From: Singulisphaera sp. GP187
Lineage (GTDB): Bacteria > Planctomycetota > Planctomycetia > Gemmatales > Gemmataceae
Assembly: GCA_945868575.1 (NCBI GenBank)
Contig: CAMBMH010000028.1
Coordinates: 1-32,454, forward strand
DNA: 32,454 bases
Direction: 5' to 3'
Made by a program: the position numbers and the translations under genes. The notes under the pieces are model-generated. The model was not told the origin of the DNA. It saw nothing but the letters and a program-made list of their open reading frames with translations, and did not search any database. Shown piece by piece: positions 145 to 20,217 of the stretch (within the stretch, counting starts at the first letter, position 1; each line of letters begins with the position of its first letter).

Positions 145-471
145 CTAAACGCGATCAAGCGCCTTGCTGAATTCGGATTCGGGTTGGAGACCAACAAGCC
201 GGTTAACTTCCTTGCCACCCTTGAAGATGATAACACAAGGGATTCCGGAGATGTTAAACTTGGAAGCCAAACCTTGAGCATCGTCGGTATTGAGTTTGCC
301 AACCTTTACTTTGCCTTCGTATTTGGTGGCAAGCGCGTCGATGGTAGGAGCCAACCGGCGGCAGGGCCCACACCAAGGCGCCCAAAAATCCACCAACACA
401 GGAATGGCACTAGCATCAACCTCAGCTGCCCAGGTGGCCTCGGTCAGATTCACAACATTGGCTGCAGCCAT
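145..471 (-). CDS. trxA: Thioredoxin
   Basis: A 108-residue cytoplasmic thioredoxin, the usual length for the family. It holds the redox motif WCGPC at about residues 33-37 in the context VDFWAPWCGPCRRLAP, and the cis-proline loop GIPCVIIFKGG further on. It reduces disulfides in cellular proteins using electrons from thioredoxin reductase. The ATG at 471 has a good ribosome site (AAGGAG, 9 nt upstream). It lies 43 bp downstream of the NYN-domain gene on the same strand, so the two may be co-transcribed, and a strong terminator follows. One oddity is a third cysteine two residues from the conserved loop proline (IPC). Family assignment is certain. Confidence 0.97.
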   Translation of the reverse strand: MAAANVVNLTEATWAAEVDASAIPVLVDFWAPWCGPCRRLAPTIDALATKYEGKVKVGKLNTDDAQGLASKFNISGIPCVIIFKGGKEVNRLVGLQPESEFSKALDRV

Positions 472-10571: not shown

Positions 10572-10826
10572 TCATTCGTCGTCGGGATTTTCGAAATCGG
10601 CGCCAAGTTTTTGTTTGTGGCGCTGCTCGACAAAGAATTCAGCCGCTTTGCTGGCCAATTTGAAGCTTTTCTCGCGAAACTCCGCCTCGCCATCCTTGCC
10701 GGGGGTTTCGTACTCGACGATGTAGGAATCCTCGTCGAGACGACACACCGCCAAACCGTGTCCAAGGCGAATCTCGTATCCGGCGACCAGCCCCAGCACT
10801 GTTGCCAGGGTTTCAGCTTCACTCAT
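10572..10826 (-). CDS. Uncharacterised 84-aa protein of the microcompartment operon
   Basis: A small acidic protein I do not recognise. It starts with a helix (SEAETLATVLGLVAGY), continues with short beta-strand-like segments (YEIRLGHGLAVCRLDEDSYIVEYETPG) and ends with a charged helix and an acidic tail (ADFENPDDE). There is no signal peptide, membrane segment or metal motif. The start is well supported: ATG at 10826 with GGGGAGG about 8 nt upstream. It sits 52 bp after the dehydrogenase gene and 76 bp before the TIM-barrel gene, all on the minus strand, so it is part of the same transcript. The size and fold pattern would suit a chaperone, shell-cargo adaptor or enzyme accessory subunit, but this is a guess from position only. 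Confidence 0.7.
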   Translation of the reverse strand: MSEAETLATVLGLVAGYEIRLGHGLAVCRLDEDSYIVEYETPGKDGEAEFREKSFKLASKAAEFFVEQRHKQKLGADFENPDDE

Positions 10827-10878: not shown

Positions 10879-12003
10879 TTAGGCTCCGCGATTCCAGGAT
10901 GCGCGATTGACGGCAGTACGAACCTGAACCGGAGGATGGCCGATTGGCTTGGCGTCACTTGCAGGCCCAATAGCAGCCATCGAAGCAGCCACCGGAGCAG
11001 GCGCAGCAACTGGGGCCGAAGACGCAGCAGCAGGAGCTGGGGCGGCAGGAGCTGCGGCGGCGGGTCCCTTTGCGAGACGGGCTTCGACCTGGTCGATAAT
11101 TCCGCGAAGAACCCGAGCCGAATTTTGCAGTCCGATTTTTTCCTTGGAAGTCAAAGACAATTCGTATTGTTTGCGGGCACCACCCGTGCCGACTTCGGTG
11201 GGCACCGAGATACACACATCGCGCAAATCGTAGAGCCCCTGTTGAAGGGTGCTTACTGGGAGAATCTTGCGGCTGTCGAGAAGGATCGATTCGACGACTT
11301 CGCGGATCGAAACGCCCACGGCAAAGCCGGATCCACCCTTGAGGGAGATCATTTTGGCGCCGGCGGTTTTGGTTTCCTCAAAGGTTTCCGCCGCGGCTTG
11401 CGCGTTCCAGCCTGGCCATTGATCAAGGGAAAGCCCCCCGACTGTGGCGGATGACCAGATAGGAACCATCGAGTCGCCATGCTCGCCCAAAAGGAGCGCC
11501 TTCACCTGGGTGGTGGGGACCTGGAGACGGCGGGCGATATGGGAACAGAAACGGGCGGTGTCGAGCTGGGTGCCCAGACCGATCACCCGGCGCCAGTCGA
11601 GGCCCGAGCGCTTGACCGCGAGATGGGTCAGCACATCAACCGGATTGCTGACCACGACAAGGTGGGAGTCAGGACGAAGCCCGGCCTTTTTGGCATCTGC
11701 CAAAAGAGCCAGGAAAAGATCCACATTGCGATTGATGAGGTCAAGGCGCGATTCATCGGGTTTGCGACGGAGCCCCGCGGTGATCACCACCACATCGCTA
11801 TCGGCCACGCCGGACATGTCCTCGGCGACAATCCGCTGATCGGCGATGAGGGACGCCCCCTGGAGGAGGTCGAGGGCAACGCCCTCCGCGACCTGCTTAT
11901 TGGCATCGATGATGGAGATATGGCTCGCAACTTTTCCCATTTGAAGGGCAAAAGCCGCCATGCTGCCTACCAGGCCGCCGCCTCCGATTACGCTCACCTT
12001 CAT
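10879..12003 (-). CDS. Lactate/malate-type NAD dehydrogenase with Ala/Pro-rich C-terminal tail
   Basis: A 374-residue NAD-dependent 2-hydroxyacid dehydrogenase of the LDH/MDH family. It shows the Rossmann start VIGGGGLVGS (5-14), SNPVDVLTHLA (~119-129), the catalytic pair Asp148/Arg151 in LDTARF, and the catalytic His175 in GEHGDS. The active-site loop reads LRRKPDESR; its Arg80 aligns with position 102, where Arg marks malate and Gln marks lactate specificity. The catalytic domain ends near 312 and is followed by ~45 residues of Ala/Pro/Ser and a short basic tail. In PVM compartments this enzyme is proposed to recycle NADH, possibly by reducing lactaldehyde to propanediol. The ATG at 12003 (GGAGAG upstream) falls 3 bp after the preceding gene. 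Confidence 0.88.
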   Translation of the reverse strand: MKVSVIGGGGLVGSMAAFALQMGKVASHISIIDANKQVAEGVALDLLQGASLIADQRIVAEDMSGVADSDVVVITAGLRRKPDESRLDLINRNVDLFLALLADAKKAGLRPDSHLVVVSNPVDVLTHLAVKRSGLDWRRVIGLGTQLDTARFCSHIARRLQVPTTQVKALLLGEHGDSMVPIWSSATVGGLSLDQWPGWNAQAAAETFEETKTAGAKMISLKGGSGFAVGVSIREVVESILLDSRKILPVSTLQQGLYDLRDVCISVPTEVGTGGARKQYELSLTSKEKIGLQNSARVLRGIIDQVEARLAKGPAAAAPAAPAPAAASSAPVAAPAPVAASMAAIGPASDAKPIGHPPVQVRTAVNRASWNRGA

Positions 12004-12515: not shown

Positions 12516-13433
12516 TTAACCGCCCATCGCGCCTAGCACCTGGTTGGTAATGGTTTGAACCAGTTTTTCAAAGTCCGCTTCCGACCGCGGCTGTTGAACA
12601 CCTTGGGGAACCCGGGTAACACCGCCACAGGTAGACACCTGGCTGGAAGTTTTGCATTGGCATTCACCCACACCGGCGGGTTCGTTTTCGCGACGAAACG
12701 CGAACGGGCGGGGAACGAATTGGGAGTATTCGTTGTCGAAGGAGCTTTCGCCACACATGGGCGCGCCTGAATTGTGGAAGCGAACATCGTCATAGCCAAG
12801 GCGTTTTTTCAGGTCGAGGAGTTCCTTGGTCTGCTGGTCGCTGAAGTAATTCACACGGCCAAGTTGGCGGGAAAGAATCAGGATGCGGCAATAAGCATCG
12901 ATGATTTCGGTGTTGAAATAAGCGTTTTCCAGGTCTGGCCCAAAAGTGATGGTGCCGTGGTTGGCAAGAAGGATGGTGTTGCAATCCTTGACATAGGGGC
13001 GGATTGTGTCGGCGAACTTTTGGCCACCGGGGGTCTCATAGACCGCGATCGGCACTTCCCCCAGAAACACTTCCACCTCGGGAAGTACGCATTTGGGGAT
13101 TGGCTCATGCGCCACAGCAAAAGCGGTCGCATGCGGTGGATGGCAGTGGACGACCGCATTGATGTCGGGCCGCTCGCTGTAAACCGACAGGTGCAACAGG
13201 ACCTCGGAGGAGCGTTTGCGCTTGCCTGCGATCTGAACGCCCTGGTTGTCGATCTTGCAGATATCATCAGGAGTCATGAACCCCTTGGATACCATGGTCG
13301 GGGTGCAGAGGAGTTCACGCTCGTTTAGGCGGACGGTGATGTTTCCATCGTTGGCCGCGGCGAATTGCCTGTCGTAGAGCCTGCGACCGATTTCGCAGAT
13401 GAATTCCTTAAGGTCTTGTTCGTTCGCGCTCAT
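12516..13433 (-). CDS. Class II (zinc) aldolase, L-fuculose/L-rhamnulose-1-phosphate type, with encapsulation peptide
   Basis: A 305-residue enzyme cleaving a 6-deoxyketose 1-phosphate into L-lactaldehyde and dihydroxyacetone phosphate. Zinc ligands His96 and His98 (VVHCHPPH) and His159 (LLANHGT) are present, as is the catalytic acidic residue Glu77 in RSSEVLLHLS. The catalytic domain ends near 215. A linker (~222-283) with four cysteines (227, 258, 260, 269) follows, then a terminal amphipathic helix (EADFEKLVQTITNQVLGAM, 285-303) typical of compartment-targeting peptides. The start at 13433 is fixed by an ATGA overlap with the preceding BMC-P stop and a GGAGG site, not by the upstream in-frame start at 13475. 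This is the signature enzyme that generates the toxic aldehyde inside the shell. Confidence 0.93.
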   Translation of the reverse strand: MSANEQDLKEFICEIGRRLYDRQFAAANDGNITVRLNERELLCTPTMVSKGFMTPDDICKIDNQGVQIAGKRKRSSEVLLHLSVYSERPDINAVVHCHPPHATAFAVAHEPIPKCVLPEVEVFLGEVPIAVYETPGGQKFADTIRPYVKDCNTILLANHGTITFGPDLENAYFNTEIIDAYCRILILSRQLGRVNYFSDQQTKELLDLKKRLGYDDVRFHNSGAPMCGESSFDNEYSQFVPRPFAFRRENEPAGVGECQCKTSSQVSTCGGVTRVPQGVQQPRSEADFEKLVQTITNQVLGAMGG

Positions 13434-13735
13434 TTTCTGTCCTCCAAGACAACCTTGTCCAAAAGAAGCCCGCAATAGGCATCCACCGGCTTTTTGCCGG
13501 GATGAAAGGGCGCAGCCGCCTCGCCCCCCTCGCTGAAAGCGATCATCTGTCCGATGCCCGCGCCCAGCTCGTCATACACCACCAGGTCCTCACCATCGCC
13601 TACGGGCTCCCCCTCGGCGACAGAAGTCTTCAAAGCGGCAAGGCTCATGGGCTGGACGATGATCCAACGGACTCCCGTGAGTGACGGATGCACCCGCTTG
13701 AGAGACACGCTGCCGATCACCGCACCCAATCTCAC
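13430..13735 (-). CDS. BMC-P shell pentamer protein (EutN/CcmL family), third copy
   Basis: A 101-residue vertex protein. The family pattern is clear: an opening strand LGAVIGSVSLKRVHP, the central VRWIIVQPMSL, then EDLVVYDELGAGIGQMIAFSEG and the closing VDAYCGLLLDKVVL. Pentamers of this fold cap the twelve vertices of the icosahedral shell. It begins at a GTG with AAGGAGG 7 nt upstream, overlaps the RpiB-like gene by four bases (GTGA) and overlaps the aldolase start by four (ATGA). It has a longer middle section (EGEPVGDGEDLVV) than the second copy. It is one of three non-identical BMC-P genes in the operon, which points to vertex specialisation. Confidence 0.95.
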   Translation of the reverse strand: MRLGAVIGSVSLKRVHPSLTGVRWIIVQPMSLAALKTSVAEGEPVGDGEDLVVYDELGAGIGQMIAFSEGGEAAAPFHPGKKPVDAYCGLLLDKVVLEDRK

Positions 13736-14205
13736 TTTGCCGCCTCCTTCAAATGTCTTTGGCCCACAACTTCAGGCCCTTTGTTTACCAACTCCCTATG
13801 TGCCTCCCAGAGGTCGGCCCCATAGCGAATGATTTCGTAAAGCGTCGCGCTATGGCACTCGGCCACCAAAACCTGGGGGCAGAGGGTTTGCAAGGCCCGG
13901 TTCATTCCATCGACGCGGTGCACATGGGCCGCGCGAACTCCTTCGAGTCGGTTAAACCCGGCCGATTCCCATTCAGGATGATCGGTAAGCCGAAGCATGC
14001 ACCATGCCAACCCCGCCGAAACAAGCTCGGCAGCGACGGAAATTACCGCCGCAGGTTCCGCACAGATTTCCTCGACCGGGATGCCCCGCCTTCTCCAAGA
14101 AAGACGGGCAGCCTCAAGGATCTCACGGGGTCCCAGGTCGCCATGAAGTGCCAAAACCAGTGGAAATTGCCAGTTTTCGGCATGGACTGTGTCGGAATCG
14201 GGCAT
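13732..14205 (-). CDS. RpiB/LacAB-like protein, degenerate sugar-phosphate isomerase fold
   Basis: A 157-residue protein between two BMC-P genes. Its C-terminal part recalls RpiB/LacA/LacB isomerases: GLAWCMLRLTDH aligns with the ILICGTGIG region and keeps a cysteine, GVRAAHVHRVDGMNRAL aligns with the VRAALCHD helix, and LVAECHSATLYEIIR aligns with the closing segment. The glycine-rich phosphate loop and the usual N-terminal GSDHAG are missing, so classical isomerase activity is doubtful. The ATG at 14205 (GGGAGG 6 nt upstream) overlaps the preceding stop by one base (TGATG); a GTG at 14208 is an alternative. Stop/start overlaps on both sides show tight coupling to shell proteins. A role in binding a phosphosugar is inferred. 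Confidence 0.65.
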   Translation of the reverse strand: MPDSDTVHAENWQFPLVLALHGDLGPREILEAARLSWRRRGIPVEEICAEPAAVISVAAELVSAGLAWCMLRLTDHPEWESAGFNRLEGVRAAHVHRVDGMNRALQTLCPQVLVAECHSATLYEIIRYGADLWEAHRELVNKGPEVVGQRHLKEAAK

Positions 14206-14471
14206 CACGCCCCTCCCACATCACAAATTCCCATAACCATCCACCGGACGGGTGAGCTTTTGTCGCCCACCATTTTCCTGGCCCCCACGCCGTCACTTGA
14301 GAGGATAACCCGGTCCCCCCTGGATGCGCCAAGCTGGTCAATCACCAGGAGAGGTTCACCCTCATCGGCACCGCGAATATCCAGCGGTTGAACAACGAGA
14401 AGGCGAACGCCGGTGAAGCTTTTGTGCTTGACCGTGGAGATCGCCATCCCTTCCACCCGCCCGATTTGCAC
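14205..14471 (-). CDS. BMC-P shell pentamer protein (EutN/CcmL family), second copy
   Basis: An 88-residue vertex protein of standard family length. It shows IGRVEGMAISTVKHKSF, the conserved GVRLLVVQPLD, LLVIDQLGASRGDRVILSSDG and a closing RWMVMGICDVG. It starts at a GTG (14471) with GGAGG 7 nt upstream and ends in a TGA that overlaps the RpiB-like start. It follows the PduP stop by 58 bp. Sequence identity with the other two BMC-P proteins is limited to the fold core, so these are old paralogues and not a recent duplication. Confidence 0.95.
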   Translation of the reverse strand: MQIGRVEGMAISTVKHKSFTGVRLLVVQPLDIRGADEGEPLLVIDQLGASRGDRVILSSDGVGARKMVGDKSSPVRWMVMGICDVGGA

Positions 14472-14529: not shown

Positions 14530-15963
14530 CTAGAGAACCCGCATTGCCTTTACCGTGGTCGAGCGCCTTTGGCGCGTGAAGGTCAGCGGAGTGGTGACGC
14601 CTTCGCCGGTGGGTGTGGCAATGGAGAAACTCAGATACCCTTCCCCGCCCGAACCAAGTCCGGCCGTGCTGGGGCCGTTCTGGATATAGAGCGTGGTGTC
14701 CATCTCGCGACCCATCCGGGTGATCGTGTCGATGTTGCGGCTATGAATCACTGCCGTGTGGCGGTAGCCATGTTCGTACTTCTTGGCCAAAGCGATCGCT
14801 TCATCCACATCCCTCGCGCGAACGAAGGGAACGAAGGGCATCATCTGCTCGTGGTCTACAAAAGGGTTGTCAACACCGGTTTCGGCGAAAAGAAGTTCGG
14901 TCTTTTCAGGGACCGAGAATCCGGCGGCCCGGGCAAGAAAGATCGGGTCCTTGCCAATCAAGTCCTTGTTGAGAACAACTTTGCCACCTTCGCCTGGCTG
15001 GAAAGCCACCCGGGTAAGGGCATCCGTTTGGGCCCGGTCAAGACGAACGGCCCCCGCGTTGGTCATCTCTGTCATAAGTTCTTCAAAGATGGAACCGACC
15101 GCAAAAACCTCTTTTTCCCCTATACAAAGGAGGTTATTGTCGTAGGCTGCCCCTGCGATTATAGAGATGGCCGCGTTTTTCAGGTCGGCGGTTTCATCCA
15201 CCACAACAGGAGGATTACCCGGTCCGGCGACGATGGCGCGCTTGGGGCTGCGGAGTGCCGCGCGGGCAACAGCAGGACCACCGGTCACACAGATCAGCTT
15301 CACTTCGCGGTGATCGAAAAGCTGCTGGGCGGTTTCGAGGGTTGGTGTCTCGACAATTGTTAGAAGATTGTCAATCCCGATCACTTCGCGAATGGCGCGG
15401 TTGAAAAGGCGAACGCCCTTGTTGGCGATTTTGGCGCCCGATGGGTGGGCATTAAAAACCACCGCGTTACCCGAAGCCAACATGTTGATGGCATTGCAGG
15501 CAAGCGTGGGAAGAGAGTGGGTTACGGGAGTGATGGCGCCAATCACACCAAAAGGAGCATATTCCTGAAGGGTGATGCCGTTGCCACCGGAGAATGCATC
15601 GGTCTTGAGAAACTCGGTGCCAGGAATCCGGTCGGCAACAATCCGCAGTTTTTCCACCTTGTGAACCAGCCGGCCAATTTTGGTCTCGTCAAATTCCTCC
15701 CGGCCTAGAGCTTCGGCCTGGTCGGTGCAGATGCGACGAATTCGGGCAATGGCGAGGGCGCGGTCCTCGACGCCACGACGGGCAAATTCCTTTTGGGCGG
15801 CTGCGGCGGCATTTGCAGCCTGATCGATGGTGGAGAAAACGCCGTCGCCAGAGGCGGACGAGGCTTGTGCAAGGTTGGGTAGCGCGGCGCCGGGGCCCCG
15901 AAGTTCTGTCAAGACCTGTTGGATCACTCCACGGATCACATCGTCGCTAAATTTGGCCGTCAT
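14530..15963 (-). CDS. pduP: CoA-acylating aldehyde dehydrogenase, PduP type
   Basis: A 477-residue enzyme converting an aldehyde, here expected to be lactaldehyde, with NAD and CoA to the acyl-CoA. The catalytic Cys280 sits in DNNLLCIGEKE. CVTGGPAVARAAL and AGPGNPPVVVDETAD are nucleotide and active-site blocks, and PSTAGLGSGGEG is near the C-terminus. Residues 1-22 form an amphipathic helix (FSDDVIRGVIQQVLTEL) followed by a flexible Ala/Ser/Gly linker, the known N-terminal encapsulation peptide layout of PduP. The ATG at 15963 has only a weak ribosome site (GTGAGATA). It follows the first BMC-P gene by 39 bp. Confidence 0.96.
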   Translation of the reverse strand: MTAKFSDDVIRGVIQQVLTELRGPGAALPNLAQASSASGDGVFSTIDQAANAAAAAQKEFARRGVEDRALAIARIRRICTDQAEALGREEFDETKIGRLVHKVEKLRIVADRIPGTEFLKTDAFSGGNGITLQEYAPFGVIGAITPVTHSLPTLACNAINMLASGNAVVFNAHPSGAKIANKGVRLFNRAIREVIGIDNLLTIVETPTLETAQQLFDHREVKLICVTGGPAVARAALRSPKRAIVAGPGNPPVVVDETADLKNAAISIIAGAAYDNNLLCIGEKEVFAVGSIFEELMTEMTNAGAVRLDRAQTDALTRVAFQPGEGGKVVLNKDLIGKDPIFLARAAGFSVPEKTELLFAETGVDNPFVDHEQMMPFVPFVRARDVDEAIALAKKYEHGYRHTAVIHSRNIDTITRMGREMDTTLYIQNGPSTAGLGSGGEGYLSFSIATPTGEGVTTPLTFTRQRRSTTVKAMRVL

Positions 15964-16367: not shown

Positions 16368-16384
16368 AACACCGCGAGGGTGTT
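16368..16384 (-). other. Small hairpin overlapping the selenoprotein gene stop codon
   Basis: AACACC (16368-16373) pairs with GGTGTT (16379-16384) around a 5-nt loop. On the minus strand it begins within the TAA stop of the selenoprotein gene and is followed by TTAAAC. It is short; it could act as a weak attenuator or an mRNA-stabilising end, or mean nothing. Confidence 0.3.
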
Positions 16385-16613
16385 ACTTTTTGGCAGCAAT
16401 CATGGCAAGGATTTCATCGTTGCCGGGGAATCGGCCGGTATCAAATTTCCGGTATACCTTTTCCCCATCGATCGCCACATCAAACACACCGCCTGATCCC
16501 ATGTGCACATTGGTTTCAACCGTGTCGCCATGGGTCTTCCGGATTGCTGCCACCAAACTGGTGGCAAATTGCCGGTAGCCTCAGGATGTGCAGTAGGTGA
16601 TGTCCACCTTCAT
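16383..16613 (-). CDS. SelW/Rdx-family selenoprotein (Sec at codon 11, TGA readthrough)
   Basis: A 76-residue protein with one in-frame TGA at codon 11 (16583-16581). The start reads MKVDITYCTS, then U, then GYRQFATSLV; this matches the YCxxU-GY motif of selenoprotein W and the Rdx thioredoxin-like family. The rest (VETNVHMGSGGVFDVAIDG and KVYRKFDTGRFPGNDEILAMI) fits that family's short alpha/beta fold and its length. The ATG at 16613 has AAAGGAG exactly 7 nt upstream (16621-16627). A hairpin fitting a bacterial SECIS follows the TGA. TGA is an ordinary stop in neighbouring genes, including four-base overlaps. The gene lies 51 bp after ackA and 59 bp before a BMC-P gene. The substrate is unknown; redox control of compartment enzymes is an inference. 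The alternative is a recent nonsense mutation of a CxxC protein, which I judge much less likely. Confidence 0.88.
16548..16566 (-). promoter_or_regulatory. Candidate bacterial SECIS element
   Basis: On the minus strand TGCCACCA and TGGTGGCA form a perfect 8-bp stem around the tri-loop GTT. The loop G is the 23rd base after the TGA. Known bacterial SECIS elements lie inside the reading frame just after the TGA, with a conserved G in the apical loop about 16-37 nt downstream and a stable stem beneath it. All three points are met. SelB bound to Sec-tRNA would recognise this loop. Confidence 0.8.
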
Positions 16614-16664
16614 AATCGGTCTCCTTTATCCTAAACTCCGGATGGTTTCCAACACCCGGATTCG

Positions 16665-17876
16665 TTATTGGGCCAGCAACAGGTCCCTCGACTGCCGGGC
16701 CACCATGAGCTCTTCGTTGGTCGGCATGGTCCAAAGCTGGACTTTGCTACCTTTTTCGTGAAAGGATGCCTCGCCTTTGGCGGTCTGGTTGGCCTTGGGA
16801 TCGATCTCGATACCCAAAAAACCAAGATTGGCGCACACGGCTTCGCGCATGAGGGTCGAGTTTTCACCGATGCCCCCCGTGAAGACGATTGCGTCCGCCC
16901 CACCAAGTGCAACCATATAGGATCCCAAATAGTGGCGAACTGCCTCGATGAAGACATCCAAGGCAAGCTTGGACCTGGGCTCGCCACGGGCGGCGGCGGC
17001 CTCGATATCGCGAAGGTCGTTGTGACCCGAAATCCCTTCAAGCCCGGAGCGGTTGGCCAGATCGGAAAGGACTTCCTCAAGGCTCTTGCCGGTGCCGCGC
17101 ATGATCACAGGAAGCGCGAAGGGATCAAAGTCGCCCACGCGATTGTTGTGCGGAAGTCCGGTTTGGGGACTCATTCCAAGGCTGTTGGCGACGGATTTGC
17201 CCGCATCAATCGCGCAAAGTGAACTCGACCCACCAAGGTGGCAGGAAATCACTTTGAGGTCGTTTTTTCCGAGGACCTCGGCGGTGCGTTGACCAATGTA
17301 TCGGTGGGATGCCCCGTGAAAACCCCAGCGCTTGACGCCATAGGATTCCGTCCAGGCCAGTGGAATCGCATAGATTTTTCGGCTTTCGGGAATGGTCTGG
17401 TGAAAGCCAGTCTCGAACGCGGCCACCAGGGGAATCTGGGGAAGTTCGCGGCTGAGAAGCCTCATTGCCGCGACATAGGGAGGGTTGTGCGCGGGAGCCA
17501 CATCATTGAAGTCTTCCATCGCGCGAAGGACGCGGTCGTCCACAACCCGCACACCACTGACCCCACGGGCATGTACAGCCTTGAAGCCGATAGCGCCAAG
17601 TTCCGACGCGTCCTTCAGGCAACCCCTGGCAGGATCGGAAAGTTGGGACAGGCAAAGTCGGACGGCGGCGGCGTGATCGCGCGCCTCGATAACAAGGTCT
17701 TCCCGTTTGCCATTCGCTTCTACGAAAGCTTTGGAACTTTCGGAACCAATGCGTTCGACGCCACCCTTAGCGATCATTTTTTCGCCTAGGGAGGTGGTAG
17801 CACCAACAGCATCCGGAAGCTCATAGAGCTTGTATTTGAAGCTGGTGCTTCCGAGATTGGCAACAAGGATTTTCAT
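16665..17876 (-). CDS. ackA: Acetate kinase-family enzyme, likely lactate-forming
   Basis: A 403-residue acetate/propionate kinase making ATP from an acyl phosphate, here expected to be lactoyl-phosphate produced by PduL. Family blocks are ANLGSTSFKYKLYELP (6-21), RWGFHGASHRYIG with His187, NNRVGDFDP with Arg246, FTGGIGENS and PTNEEL. Three positions that are nearly invariant in classical AckA differ: the HRxVHGG arginine is Lys99 (FKAVHAR), the FDTAFHQ aspartate is Glu155 (FETGFHQ), and the HLGNG asparagine is Gly (HLGGSSS). This hints at a changed acyl substrate. No targeting peptide is visible, consistent with a cytosolic final step. The ATG at 17876 lacks a clear ribosome site and follows a stable hairpin. 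Confidence 0.93.
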   Translation of the reverse strand: MKILVANLGSTSFKYKLYELPDAVGATTSLGEKMIAKGGVERIGSESSKAFVEANGKREDLVIEARDHAAAVRLCLSQLSDPARGCLKDASELGAIGFKAVHARGVSGVRVVDDRVLRAMEDFNDVAPAHNPPYVAAMRLLSRELPQIPLVAAFETGFHQTIPESRKIYAIPLAWTESYGVKRWGFHGASHRYIGQRTAEVLGKNDLKVISCHLGGSSSLCAIDAGKSVANSLGMSPQTGLPHNNRVGDFDPFALPVIMRGTGKSLEEVLSDLANRSGLEGISGHNDLRDIEAAAARGEPRSKLALDVFIEAVRHYLGSYMVALGGADAIVFTGGIGENSTLMREAVCANLGFLGIEIDPKANQTAKGEASFHEKGSKVQLWTMPTNEELMVARQSRDLLLAQ

Positions 17877-17957: not shown

Positions 17958-18239
17958 TTAGTTGCCCAGGAATACCGCCAAAACGGCGGGATCGGGACGG
18001 GGAATCACATGGGCGCTGACAAGCTCCCCGTGTTCCGAGGCGGCTTTGCCGCCTGCGTCTACCGCAGCGCGAACGCTGCCTACATCGCCACGAACAAAAG
18101 TCGCGACGAAAGCATTGCCAATCTGAACCTGTCCGGCGTAGCTGACATTCGCTGCCTTGCACATGGCGTCCGTTGCGGCAATAGCCGAAATCAGACCTTT
18201 AACTTCCACGATACCCAAGGCTTCGGGCCTGGTTGCCAT
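17958..18239 (-). CDS. BMC-H shell hexamer protein, QIGNA pore type
   Basis: A 93-residue single-BMC-domain protein that builds the flat facets of the shell as hexamers. It opens with EALGIVEVKGLISAIAATDAMCKAANV and continues with GDVGSVRAAVDAGGKAA and VSAHVIPRPDP, all typical. The pore loop reads VQIGNAFV where many BMC-H proteins have KIGSG, so its pore is likely uncharged and different from its neighbour's. The ATG at 18239 is preferred over 18245 because AGGAG then has the usual 7-8 nt spacing. It starts 39 bp after the other BMC-H gene. Confidence 0.97.
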   Translation of the reverse strand: MATRPEALGIVEVKGLISAIAATDAMCKAANVSYAGQVQIGNAFVATFVRGDVGSVRAAVDAGGKAASEHGELVSAHVIPRPDPAVLAVFLGN

Positions 18240-18278
18240 GATCATTTCTCCTGGTTTGAGGGTGTTTTGGGTTAGGGT

Positions 18279-18569
18279 TTAGACCACAGGGGCCTTGGGG
18301 AGAATTGCTTGAAGGTCGCCGTGGGGGCGAGGAATCACCTGGATTCCTACAACCTCACCGACCCGAGCTGCGGCGGCGGAGCCGGCATCCACAGCAGCCT
18401 TGACCGCGGCAACATCGCCCACCACCATGGCGGTGACAAGTCCGCTGCCGATTTTTTGCCATCCAAGAAGCTGCACATTGGCAGCCTTGAGCATCGCGTC
18501 ACTGGCTTCGACCAGCGCGGTTAGTCCCCGGGTTTCAATCATTCCCAGGGCTTCCAAAGATCCCGCCAT
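18279..18569 (-). CDS. BMC-H shell hexamer protein, KIGSG pore type
   Basis: A 96-residue BMC-domain protein: [29 protein letters not shown], the pore segment [16 protein letters not shown], then [15 protein letters not shown] and [11 protein letters not shown]. The KIGSG pore is the canonical PduA-like one. A C-terminal extension ([10 protein letters not shown]) follows. The start at 18569 is chosen over the in-frame start at 18602 because AAAGGGGG lies just upstream and because it matches the family start. The 116-bp gap to pduL holds small inverted repeats (GGCCC/GGGCC at 18595-18608 and the palindrome CCGCAATTGCGG at 18673-18684). Confidence 0.97.
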
Positions 18570-18685
18570 AGCGAACCCCCTTTCACAGGTGTTTGGCCCC
18601 AATGGGCCGTCTCAATCAAAGGTCACAAATCAAAAAACCATCGCCTCCCACCCCGACACAAAGCCCCGCAGACCGCAATTGCGGA

Positions 18686-19381
18686 CTAGCGGAAAAGCTC
18701 CATGTGGGTTGCCTTGGCGAGATTGCAGGCATTTCCCTCGTCGGTATCAATGTGAGCCTCCAATTTGGCCCCCTTTGATACACGGACCAAAAGGTTCTCT
18801 AGCACCGCTGCGCAATCACTCTTGACGCGCAGGTGCATCCTGTCCCCATCCTGGACCCCAAAGTGCGCAGCCTCGTCGGCGGCCATGTGAACATGGCGTT
18901 CGTGGCGGATCACACCTTTTTCCATGTGGATCATCCCCTTGGGCCCAATAAGGTAGCACCCGGGGGAATCGCGGTGGTCGCCACTTTTGCGAACCGGAGG
19001 GTCAATTCCAAGGAGGATGGCATCGGTAAATGCCAACTCGACCTGGCTATGATCCCGGCAAGGGCCGAGAATTCTCAGATTGGAAATGATCCGCTGGCGG
19101 GGACCGACAATGGTGAGCGTTTCTTCAGCGGCGAAAAAGCCATCCTGATATAGCATCTTATAAGGGGTAAGCTTGTGACCCTTTCCAAATAGACGCTCCA
19201 GATCCTCCTGGGTCACATGGGCATGTCTTGCGGAGACATTGACCATCAACTTTGGGGCGGCCGATTTGGTGGCAACAGGAGGATGCCCTGCGGGGTTCAT
19301 CCCACGCAAAAGGCTCTCGCGGACCATCTTTTCCACCAAAGCGCGGTCCAGGTTTCGTCGGTTAGCCGTCATGGTGCTCAT
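18686..19381 (-). CDS. pduL: Phosphate acyltransferase PduL
   Basis: A 231-residue phosphotransacylase of the PduL type, converting acyl-CoA and phosphate to acyl phosphate and free CoA, which lets CoA be recycled within the shell. Two PduL domains are visible with their metal-binding histidines: NVSARHAHVTQEDL (His53/His55), RHVHMAADEAAHFGVQDGD (His163/His165) and HIDTDEGNACN (His210). Residues ~10-28 (NLDRALVEKMVRESLLRGM) form an amphipathic N-terminal helix, joined by a Pro/Ala linker, matching known PduL encapsulation peptides. The ATG at 19381 overlaps the DeoR stop as ATGA, with GGAGG 9 nt upstream. Confidence 0.96.
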   Translation of the reverse strand: MSTMTANRRNLDRALVEKMVRESLLRGMNPAGHPPVATKSAAPKLMVNVSARHAHVTQEDLERLFGKGHKLTPYKMLYQDGFFAAEETLTIVGPRQRIISNLRILGPCRDHSQVELAFTDAILLGIDPPVRKSGDHRDSPGCYLIGPKGMIHMEKGVIRHERHVHMAADEAAHFGVQDGDRMHLRVKSDCAAVLENLLVRVSKGAKLEAHIDTDEGNACNLAKATHMELFR

Positions 19382-20217
19382 GCTCCAAATCCTCCGGGTT
19401 CCCCGGCCACAATCAGCCGGACACCCGCCTCTGTGATCGTTTTGCGGGCGTCACTCTGGATTGCGGGGTCCACCACAAGGGTATCCACCTCACGCAAGTC
19501 ACAAAGCCACGCCAACCCTTGCCGACCGATCTTGGTGTGGTCCGCCACCACCAATACCTCATCGGCACGCCGCATCATCGCCCTTTCGGTTTCCACCAAA
19601 AGAAGATTGCCATTGAACAAACCTTTGTCCGTAATTCCCGCCACACCCATTACCATCAGCCTTACATGCAGATCTTCGAGCATGCGAATGGTCAGAGGCC
19701 CCAAGGCAACGCCGGTTTTTGGGTACACATATCCACCCAGTAGGACCAGGTCGGTGTCCCGACACCCGGAATAGAGCTGGGCGATGGGAATACTATTGGT
19801 GACAACCTGAACCGAACGGCCGACCAAAAGCCTTGCCAGTTCGAGGGTTGTGGTTCCTCCATCGAGGAGGACAGTATCCCCGTCATGAATGAGATCGGCG
19901 ACGGCTCTGGCGATTAATTTCTTTTCTTCCAGCTGGCGGCTAAATCGCTCTTCCAAGGTGGGAAGTGGAATTGCATCAGCAACAAATACCGCCCCCCCAT
20001 GGGTCCGACGCACCAGGCCCCTATTGTGCCAGTGGTCCAAATCACGCCGAAGTGTGGATTCCGAAGCACCCAATTCACGGGAAAGGTCGCCAAGAGAGAC
20101 AAATCCCTTGGAACTGATCAAATCCAACACCCGTTGACGGCGCTCTTCAACTAGCACGCGGAAGTCTCCGGAAGGGGGAGAAACAGATCTTGGGGTCAAT
20201 CCTGCAGAAATCACCAA
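19378..20217 (-). CDS. DeoR-family transcriptional regulator of the microcompartment operon
   Basis: A 279-residue repressor-type regulator. Residues ~24-80 form the winged helix-turn-helix (RRQRVLDLISSKGFVSLGDLSRELGASESTLRRDLDHWHNRGLVRRTHGG). Residues ~95-260 form the DeoRC sugar-phosphate sensor (DGDTVLLDGGTTTLELARLL, VVTNSIPIAQ, LLGGYVYPKTGVALGP, VADHTKIGR). DeoR proteins usually release DNA on binding a phosphorylated sugar, here plausibly fuculose- or rhamnulose-phosphate or DHAP. The frame opens at TTG (20217) or GTG (20214), both placed after AAGGAG; no nearby ATG fits. As first gene, overlapping pduL by four bases, it likely controls the whole operon and itself. Confidence 0.94.
   Translation of the reverse strand: MVISAGLTPRSVSPPSGDFRVLVEERRQRVLDLISSKGFVSLGDLSRELGASESTLRRDLDHWHNRGLVRRTHGGAVFVADAIPLPTLEERFSRQLEEKKLIARAVADLIHDGDTVLLDGGTTTLELARLLVGRSVQVVTNSIPIAQLYSGCRDTDLVLLGGYVYPKTGVALGPLTIRMLEDLHVRLMVMGVAGITDKGLFNGNLLLVETERAMMRRADEVLVVADHTKIGRQGLAWLCDLREVDTLVVDPAIQSDARKTITEAGVRLIVAGEPGGFGA

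Follow-up and report, generated by a model that had tools for sequence, protein, structure and literature searches.

The window analysed here, a 32,454-nucleotide stretch of a planctomycete genome (Singulisphaera sp. GP187, contig CAMBMH010000028.1), carries a gene for a predicted selenocysteine-containing protein of the SelW/Rdx family inside a bacterial microcompartment (BMC) operon of the Planctomycetes/Verrucomicrobia (PVM) type, and the product probably serves the microcompartment as a thiol reductase. The gene lies on the minus strand at 16383..16613, with its ATG at 16613 and its TAA at the low end, and comprises 76 codons and the stop codon, with a single in-frame TGA at codon 11 (16581..16583). 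The original prediction had these coordinates right and left the strand unstated: the plus strand of this interval gives an unrelated reading, and the minus strand gives the Rdx/SelW product, MKVDITYCTSUGYRQFATSLVAAIRKTHGDTVETNVHMGSGGVFDVAIDGEKVYRKFDTGRFPGNDEILAMIAAKK, in which the TGA is read as selenocysteine (U) and forms the CxxU motif CTSU in the context YCTSUGY. The good ribosome-binding site claimed for the gene is the minus-strand sequence AAGGAG (16621..16626), recognised from the sequence and located 7 nt before the ATG.

As had been proposed, reading through the one TGA yields a 76-residue protein that scores above cut-off with both the Pfam Rdx profile (PF10262; 63.7 bits versus 22.6) and the NCBIfam profile TIGR02174 (59.8 bits versus 34.2), and that misses the threshold of the narrower NF041051, a Campylobacter equivalog (66.6 versus 88). 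It is the sole Rdx match in its own genome. An AlphaFold model of the protein (pLDDT 94) has the order beta-alpha-beta-beta-beta-alpha, and its top Foldseek matches are the SelW-related proteins 2fa8, 2obk and 2ojl (TM up to 0.95), with mouse SelW (2npb) at rank 29; as modelled, the protein has a CxxU redox motif (CTSU) and a thioredoxin-like fold. The CxxU motif following the first strand, the thioredoxin-like fold and the length are shared with the known SelW/Rdx family (PF10262, TIGR02174, mouse SelW 2NPB), which contains selenocysteine in many bacteria, as predicted for the window protein, and in the family table of an ocean survey SelW-like is the family with the largest number of selenoproteins (PMC2398784). 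Assignment of the window gene to the Rdx/SelW-family selenoproteins is supported by its sequence, its selenocysteine content being predicted.

Alignment located a hairpin resembling a bacterial SECIS element downstream of the TGA, GCCACC-AGUUU-GGUGGC (16549..16565, minus strand), Rfam having given no SECIS match (four hits in the stretch, all with E-values of 1.5 or worse). According to the legend of Figure 2 in PMC13188914, bacterial SECIS elements have a loop of 3-9 nt and a stem of 4-16 bp, and further rules from the same source place a G within the first two loop positions, set the distance from the UGA at 16-37 nt and the folding energy at -7.5 kcal/mol or lower. The window hairpin conforms to these published rules, with its AGUUU loop, 6-bp stem, distance of 21 nt from the UGA to the apical loop and folding energy of -20.3 kcal/mol (UGA plus 45 nt of the window; z -2.81). 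Across the BMC-linked genes the hairpin follows the consensus CC(A/G)CC-AGUUU-GG(U/C)GG, with U as fourth stem base in one genome. Five of the six stem pairs hold in all 13 distinct BMC-linked sequences and the outer pair fails in five, and the middle pair is altered on both sides in 5 of the 13. Three of five covariation measures computed on these 13 sequences (cells paired, cells changed on both sides and the covariation score) beat all 500 shuffles, and the other two (pairs changed on both sides and further pair types) do not rise above them. A larger set comprised 62 distinct sequences, 11 from BMC-linked genes and 51 from other loci, with slid partners as the control: 294 of 310 stem cells pair, and sliding the partners by 1-3 bases leaves no more than 178 of 310 paired. 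All 15 BMC-linked genes keep the loop codons AGT for serine and TTG for leucine; average use in the same operons is 9% of serine codons for AGT and 20% of leucine codons for TTG.

The free-standing SelW genes of this planctomycete family share the CxxU motif and have SECIS hairpins of the same type, their loops reading AGUUU, AGUCU or GGUCU. They differ from the window protein in sequence (28-35% identity where a match scored), in forming a separate clade and, unlike the BMC form, in having no BMC neighbours at the loci looked at. The shared hairpin bears on the idea that the TGA acts as a selenium-gated switch, whereby lack of selenium would stop translation at codon 11 and lower expression of the downstream shell and PduP genes. 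The position of the gene in mid-operon, before BMC-P1 and PduP, the UGA at codon 11 and the stability of the hairpin are all compatible with such a switch; because the same kind of hairpin also serves free SelW genes, no extra role is required of it here, and we regard the switch as improbable.

A search of the window's genome for selA, selB, selC and selD, put forward as a check by the original prediction, found all four. The tRNA-Sec scores 67.4 bits against a cut-off of 47, with a second program giving the anticodon TCA, and selB scores 354 bits. Beginning 2 nt past the selB stop codon, selA is represented by its first 215 residues, a partial match of 263.5 bits against a cut-off of 267.9 that ends with the fetched stretch. 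The selD gene is split over two overlapping contig ends (L267 and L268; G000:C106 and C203). Judged from these genes, the genome appears able to make selenocysteine. Among the 15 genomes bearing the BMC-linked Rdx gene, selB is above cut-off in 12, and the other three are 79, 88 and 59% complete. The selD gene of the window's genome itself bears an in-frame TGA (SCAGU).

The TGA stands at codon 11 in 15 of the 15 family genomes with the BMC-linked form, the window's included. Downstream of it, dN is lower than dS in 105 of 105 pairs among the 15 sequences (dS being saturated in some pairs), and the median dN/dS is 0.234 over the 80 of 105 pairs with finite dS above 0.05; this part of the gene is under purifying selection. 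The original prediction had named a read error at the TGA as one of the cases that would undo it, and the window does come from a draft assembly of 302 contigs; the recurrence of the TGA at the same codon in all 15 genomes and the low median dN/dS refute both a read error and a pseudogene. The alternation between selenocysteine and cysteine that had been suggested as a further check was found in limited form, frame and context being conserved in the 15 genomes with one Cys form in the clade. This form, P0003, is a full-length metagenomic database relative from a 565-bp contig that has Cys at the Sec column and nests within the BMC clade on a long branch in a 41-row tree (supports around it of 98/93 for 15 rows, and of 100/98 for seven rows with the window's genus and g22).

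It had also been claimed that automated calling misses the gene and sees two fragments. The gene is indeed cut at the TGA, and the database holds one fragment rather than two: P0019, a 56-aa entry that begins after the TGA and is identical to the window, with no entry seen for the 10 codons upstream. Database entries of relatives are likewise fragments of 58-60 aa past the TGA, several of them named SelT/SelW/SelH family protein. Such entries are what would be expected if the true product were a short protein of 56-60 aa starting after the TGA and devoid of selenocysteine. That product would be without the first beta strand and the active-site motif, and it would leave the conservation of the codons upstream of the TGA and of the CxxU motif in 15 of 15 sequences, the conserved hairpin with its rare loop codons, and the stretch resembling a ribosome-binding site before the ATG in all 14 sequences with upstream DNA (the contig of G020 ends there) to be accounted for; we consider it very improbable. 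Full-length BMC-linked selenoproteins, as we read them, are all 76-80 codons long and, but for a few residues at the C-terminus, consist of the Rdx core (15 sequences).

The window gene belongs to a row of genes that share its strand and are closely spaced, from which a single operon is inferred: DeoR, PduL, BMC-H, BMC-H, AckA, Rdx, BMC-P, PduP, BMC-P, a gene without family, BMC-P, class II aldolase, a 107-aa frame, lactate/malate dehydrogenase, an 84-aa gene and a 425-aa gene. At the head of the row (all coordinates on the minus strand) are a DeoR-family regulator (19378..20217; PF00455, PF08220), a PduL phosphotransacylase (18686..19381; PF06130, 234.4 bits) and two BMC-H shell genes (18279..18602 and 17958..18245; PF00936, 96.2 and 83.3 bits). 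The acetate/propionate kinase gene ackA (16665..17876; PF00871, 341 bits) lies directly upstream of Rdx and the shell gene BMC-P1 (16003..16359; EutN/CcmL, PF03319, 91.3 bits) directly downstream, and the tight placing predicted between them corresponds to 51 nt between ackA and Rdx and 23 nt between Rdx and the BMC-P frame. These are followed by a PduP-type CoA-acylating aldehyde dehydrogenase, the likely client (14530..15963; NF011927, 597.6 bits; PF00171), in which we take residue 280, by its motif, to be the catalytic Cys, and by the second and third BMC-P shell genes (14205..14471 and 13430..13735; PF03319, 85.8 and 62.1 bits). The row continues with a class II aldolase, the PVM signature enzyme (12516..13475; PF00596, 161.2 bits), a member of the lactate/malate dehydrogenase family (10879..12003; PF00056/PF02866) and an 84-aa gene with no function assigned (10572..10826; present in 14 of 95 family genomes). 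Between BMC-P2 and BMC-P3 lies a gene with no Pfam or NCBIfam match (13732..14208), which tblastn recognises only in the window's genus among the loci compared.

The joint presence of class II aldolase, PduP, PduL, AckA, BMC-H and BMC-P bears out the assignment to a PVM-type operon. As described in PMC4207490, the PVM type has in common with the window operon the class II aldolase, PduL, PduP and AckA, together with two BMC-H and three BMC-P genes, lactate/malate dehydrogenase and the DeoR regulator, and the same gene set is ascribed to the breakdown of fucose and rhamnose (PMC4207490, PMC8857213). The window operon differs from it in two additions, the selenoprotein gene between ackA and BMC-P1 and the 84-aa gene, which mark one lineage in the family.

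To establish how closely the selenoprotein gene is tied to the microcompartment, we examined 95 genomes of the window's family, 76 of which have some Rdx and 42 of which have BMC-P. With a profile built from the BMC-linked form, exactly 15 genomes from five genera score 129-143 bits and the others at most 55.6 bits, and these 15 fall among the 42 genomes with BMC-P, as opposed to none of the 53 without. All 15 BMC-linked Rdx genes adjoin BMC-P1, and ackA is on the other side in 14, the contig of the remaining locus (L089) ending before it. The spacing from ackA to BMC-P1, taken from aligned gene ends, is 267-339 nt in those 14 Rdx-bearing loci where it can be measured, versus 2-123 nt, with no room for a gene, in 13 Rdx-less BMC loci compared from the 27 such genomes. 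Since those 27 of the 42 BMC-bearing genomes are without the gene, the organelle there works without a BMC selenoprotein. Beyond the family count, a TGA-motif scan of named genomes returned at least 120 stretches; of the 120 listed, nine have BMC genes, and all nine have the same Rdx type. A further 68 Rdx loci, taken with short flanks, had BMC genes in only four cases, all counted before. Outside the family, 32 of the genomes searched have both Rdx and BMC-P, and in none of the 30 with both positions are the two adjacent (read by eye, with the best BMC-P place only). In an even phylum draw of 392 genomes, the high-scoring type appears in the window's genome only (134.8 bits, the next being 80.3), this genome being the only family member among the matches listed.

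In a tree of joined BMC proteins from 27 of 28 loci (L089 was too incomplete and was left out), the Rdx-bearing loci form one group with support 0.988, which indicates one acquisition in one lineage. The Rdx tree agrees, placing the BMC form in one clade of 14 rows (100/95; the bootstrap had not fully settled), and a single acquisition implies that the operon linkage has been retained and not gained repeatedly. For the Rdx tree, identical rows were merged (14 BMC rows from 15) and nine named stretches repeating BMC loci were omitted; the near-identical L092 is omitted from A1 and A2, which give 14 of the 15. The origin of the BMC clade among other SelW proteins falls at deep forks with little support in both the Rdx tree and the 41-row tree.

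A further possibility is that this SelW is a general antioxidant whose gene hitchhikes among the BMC genes, unconnected in any special way to the chemistry of the organelle. In the three genomes of the window's genus the BMC form is the only SelW match, so that it could also do a general cellular job there; this would favour a hitchhiker, as would the points on targeting and partner cysteines given below. However, 12 of the 15 genomes with the BMC form keep a second, free SelW of the other clade, and free copies often lie beside selD; the BMC form is a clade of its own that occurs in none of the 53 genomes without a BMC-P match; and two g19 genomes without a BMC-P match, G046 (94% complete) and G078 (73%), retain the free copy and not the BMC one. 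A hitchhiker seems unlikely to us, and a BMC-dedicated selenoprotein is well supported. A third g19 genome, G082, was dropped as an example lacking both BMC and the BMC-type Rdx: one of its contigs, 3.1 kb long, carries the 84-aa gene together with aldolase and dehydrogenase genes, and its BMC locus is therefore probably just unassembled.

Both the protein family and the organelle type were already known, and what appears new against the literature searched is a SelW clade fixed in a BMC operon. The window form departs from the rest of the SelW/Rdx family in its distinct clade (100/95) and in this fixed operon place, the neighbours named for SelW-like genes in PMC2398784 and PMC13188914 being other redox genes such as Prx. 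No BMC selenoprotein was found in the literature searched, including PMC8217296, PMC4207490, PMC8857213, PMC12628686 and PMC13188914, a scope outside which the founding PVM paper (PMC3993161) falls. If the assignment is true, microcompartments would gain their first assigned selenoprotein, and BMC surveys based on called genes could miss a component whose gene is split at a TGA. The finding also raises the question of how BMC enzymes with a catalytic thiol remain reduced. We know of no cellular role for bacterial SelW beyond its redox fold, and a SelW fixed in an operon whose chemistry is known offers a defined set of possible partners.

In the mechanism that we propose, the ribosome would decode the UGA as selenocysteine by means of SelB, tRNA-Sec and the hairpin, and the product would fold into a thioredoxin-like domain in which the selenol and Cys8 (C-T-S-U) could form a selenenylsulfide pair. 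We infer this selenol/thiol redox function because the confident thioredoxin-like model is closest to SelW-related structures. SelW would then reduce oxidised or thiol-blocked cysteines of the enzymes made with it. The operon is taken to make lactaldehyde, which passes to the CoA-acylating dehydrogenase (as outlined in PMC8857213). The most likely client would be this CoA-acylating lactaldehyde dehydrogenase (PduP), or CoA-linked thiols around it, and its thioester chemistry would stop if the catalytic Cys became oxidised during aerobic fucose or rhamnose breakdown. CoA-acylating dehydrogenases need a free catalytic cysteine. Selenocysteine withstands over-oxidation better than cysteine, and may have been retained for this greater resistance. 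An encapsulation peptide was looked for by inspection of the 15 sequences, none of which has a helix-sized extension beyond the Rdx core; given no visible encapsulation tag, we propose that SelW would do its work in the cytosol, either ahead of shell closure or while the shell closes, and the same observation is compatible with a hitchhiking antioxidant.

Partner cysteines were sought in ten BMC proteins by comparing 15 Rdx-bearing with 13 Rdx-less family loci (10 to 15 versus 11 to 13 sequences per protein), the columns listed being those with at least three Cys in one of the groups. No listed cysteine column was universal in the Rdx-bearing and absent from the Rdx-less loci; as no column separates the groups in the expected way, no client is singled out, a result that again leans towards the hitchhiker. 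The Cys-rich aldolase linker, originally suggested as a target, is not singled out either, 13 of the 14 listed aldolase Cys columns being as common or commoner in loci without Rdx. At PduP column 170, all 12 Rdx-less loci have Cys and none of the 14 Rdx-bearing loci does, a difference that may reflect lineage only.

A bolder form of the proposal is that of a selenium-dependent organelle, in which the dedicated SelW, acquired once in the lineage that also has the 84-aa gene, would recharge dehydrogenase or shell thiols and so let the aldehyde pathway proceed in air; we hold this to be conceivable, at slightly below an even chance. Within the 95 family genomes the 84-aa gene occurs in 13 of the 15 Rdx-bearing genomes and in G082 only, that is, in one lineage. 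The model of its protein (pLDDT 84.5) gave no convincing match in Foldseek (best E 0.12).

Several minor features of the surrounding genes were also recorded. A thioredoxin gene (145-471, minus strand; PF00085, 103.7 bits) lies at the end of the window, outside the operon. Among the 72 Rdx loci looked at (with some overlap, and four of them BMC-linked), 30 lie beside selD, for example L127-L130 and L134-L138, and the frequent placing of free SelW beside selD suggests a SelW-selD operon. The free SelW of L142 (G007:C172) reads FCSVGNY, with Gly at the active-site column in place of either Sec or Cys. Three free Rdx genes contain two TGA codons each (G015:C82 in L110, G056:C222 and G066:C121), and in that of G015 the cysteine of the CxxU motif is itself encoded as TGA (YUSMU).
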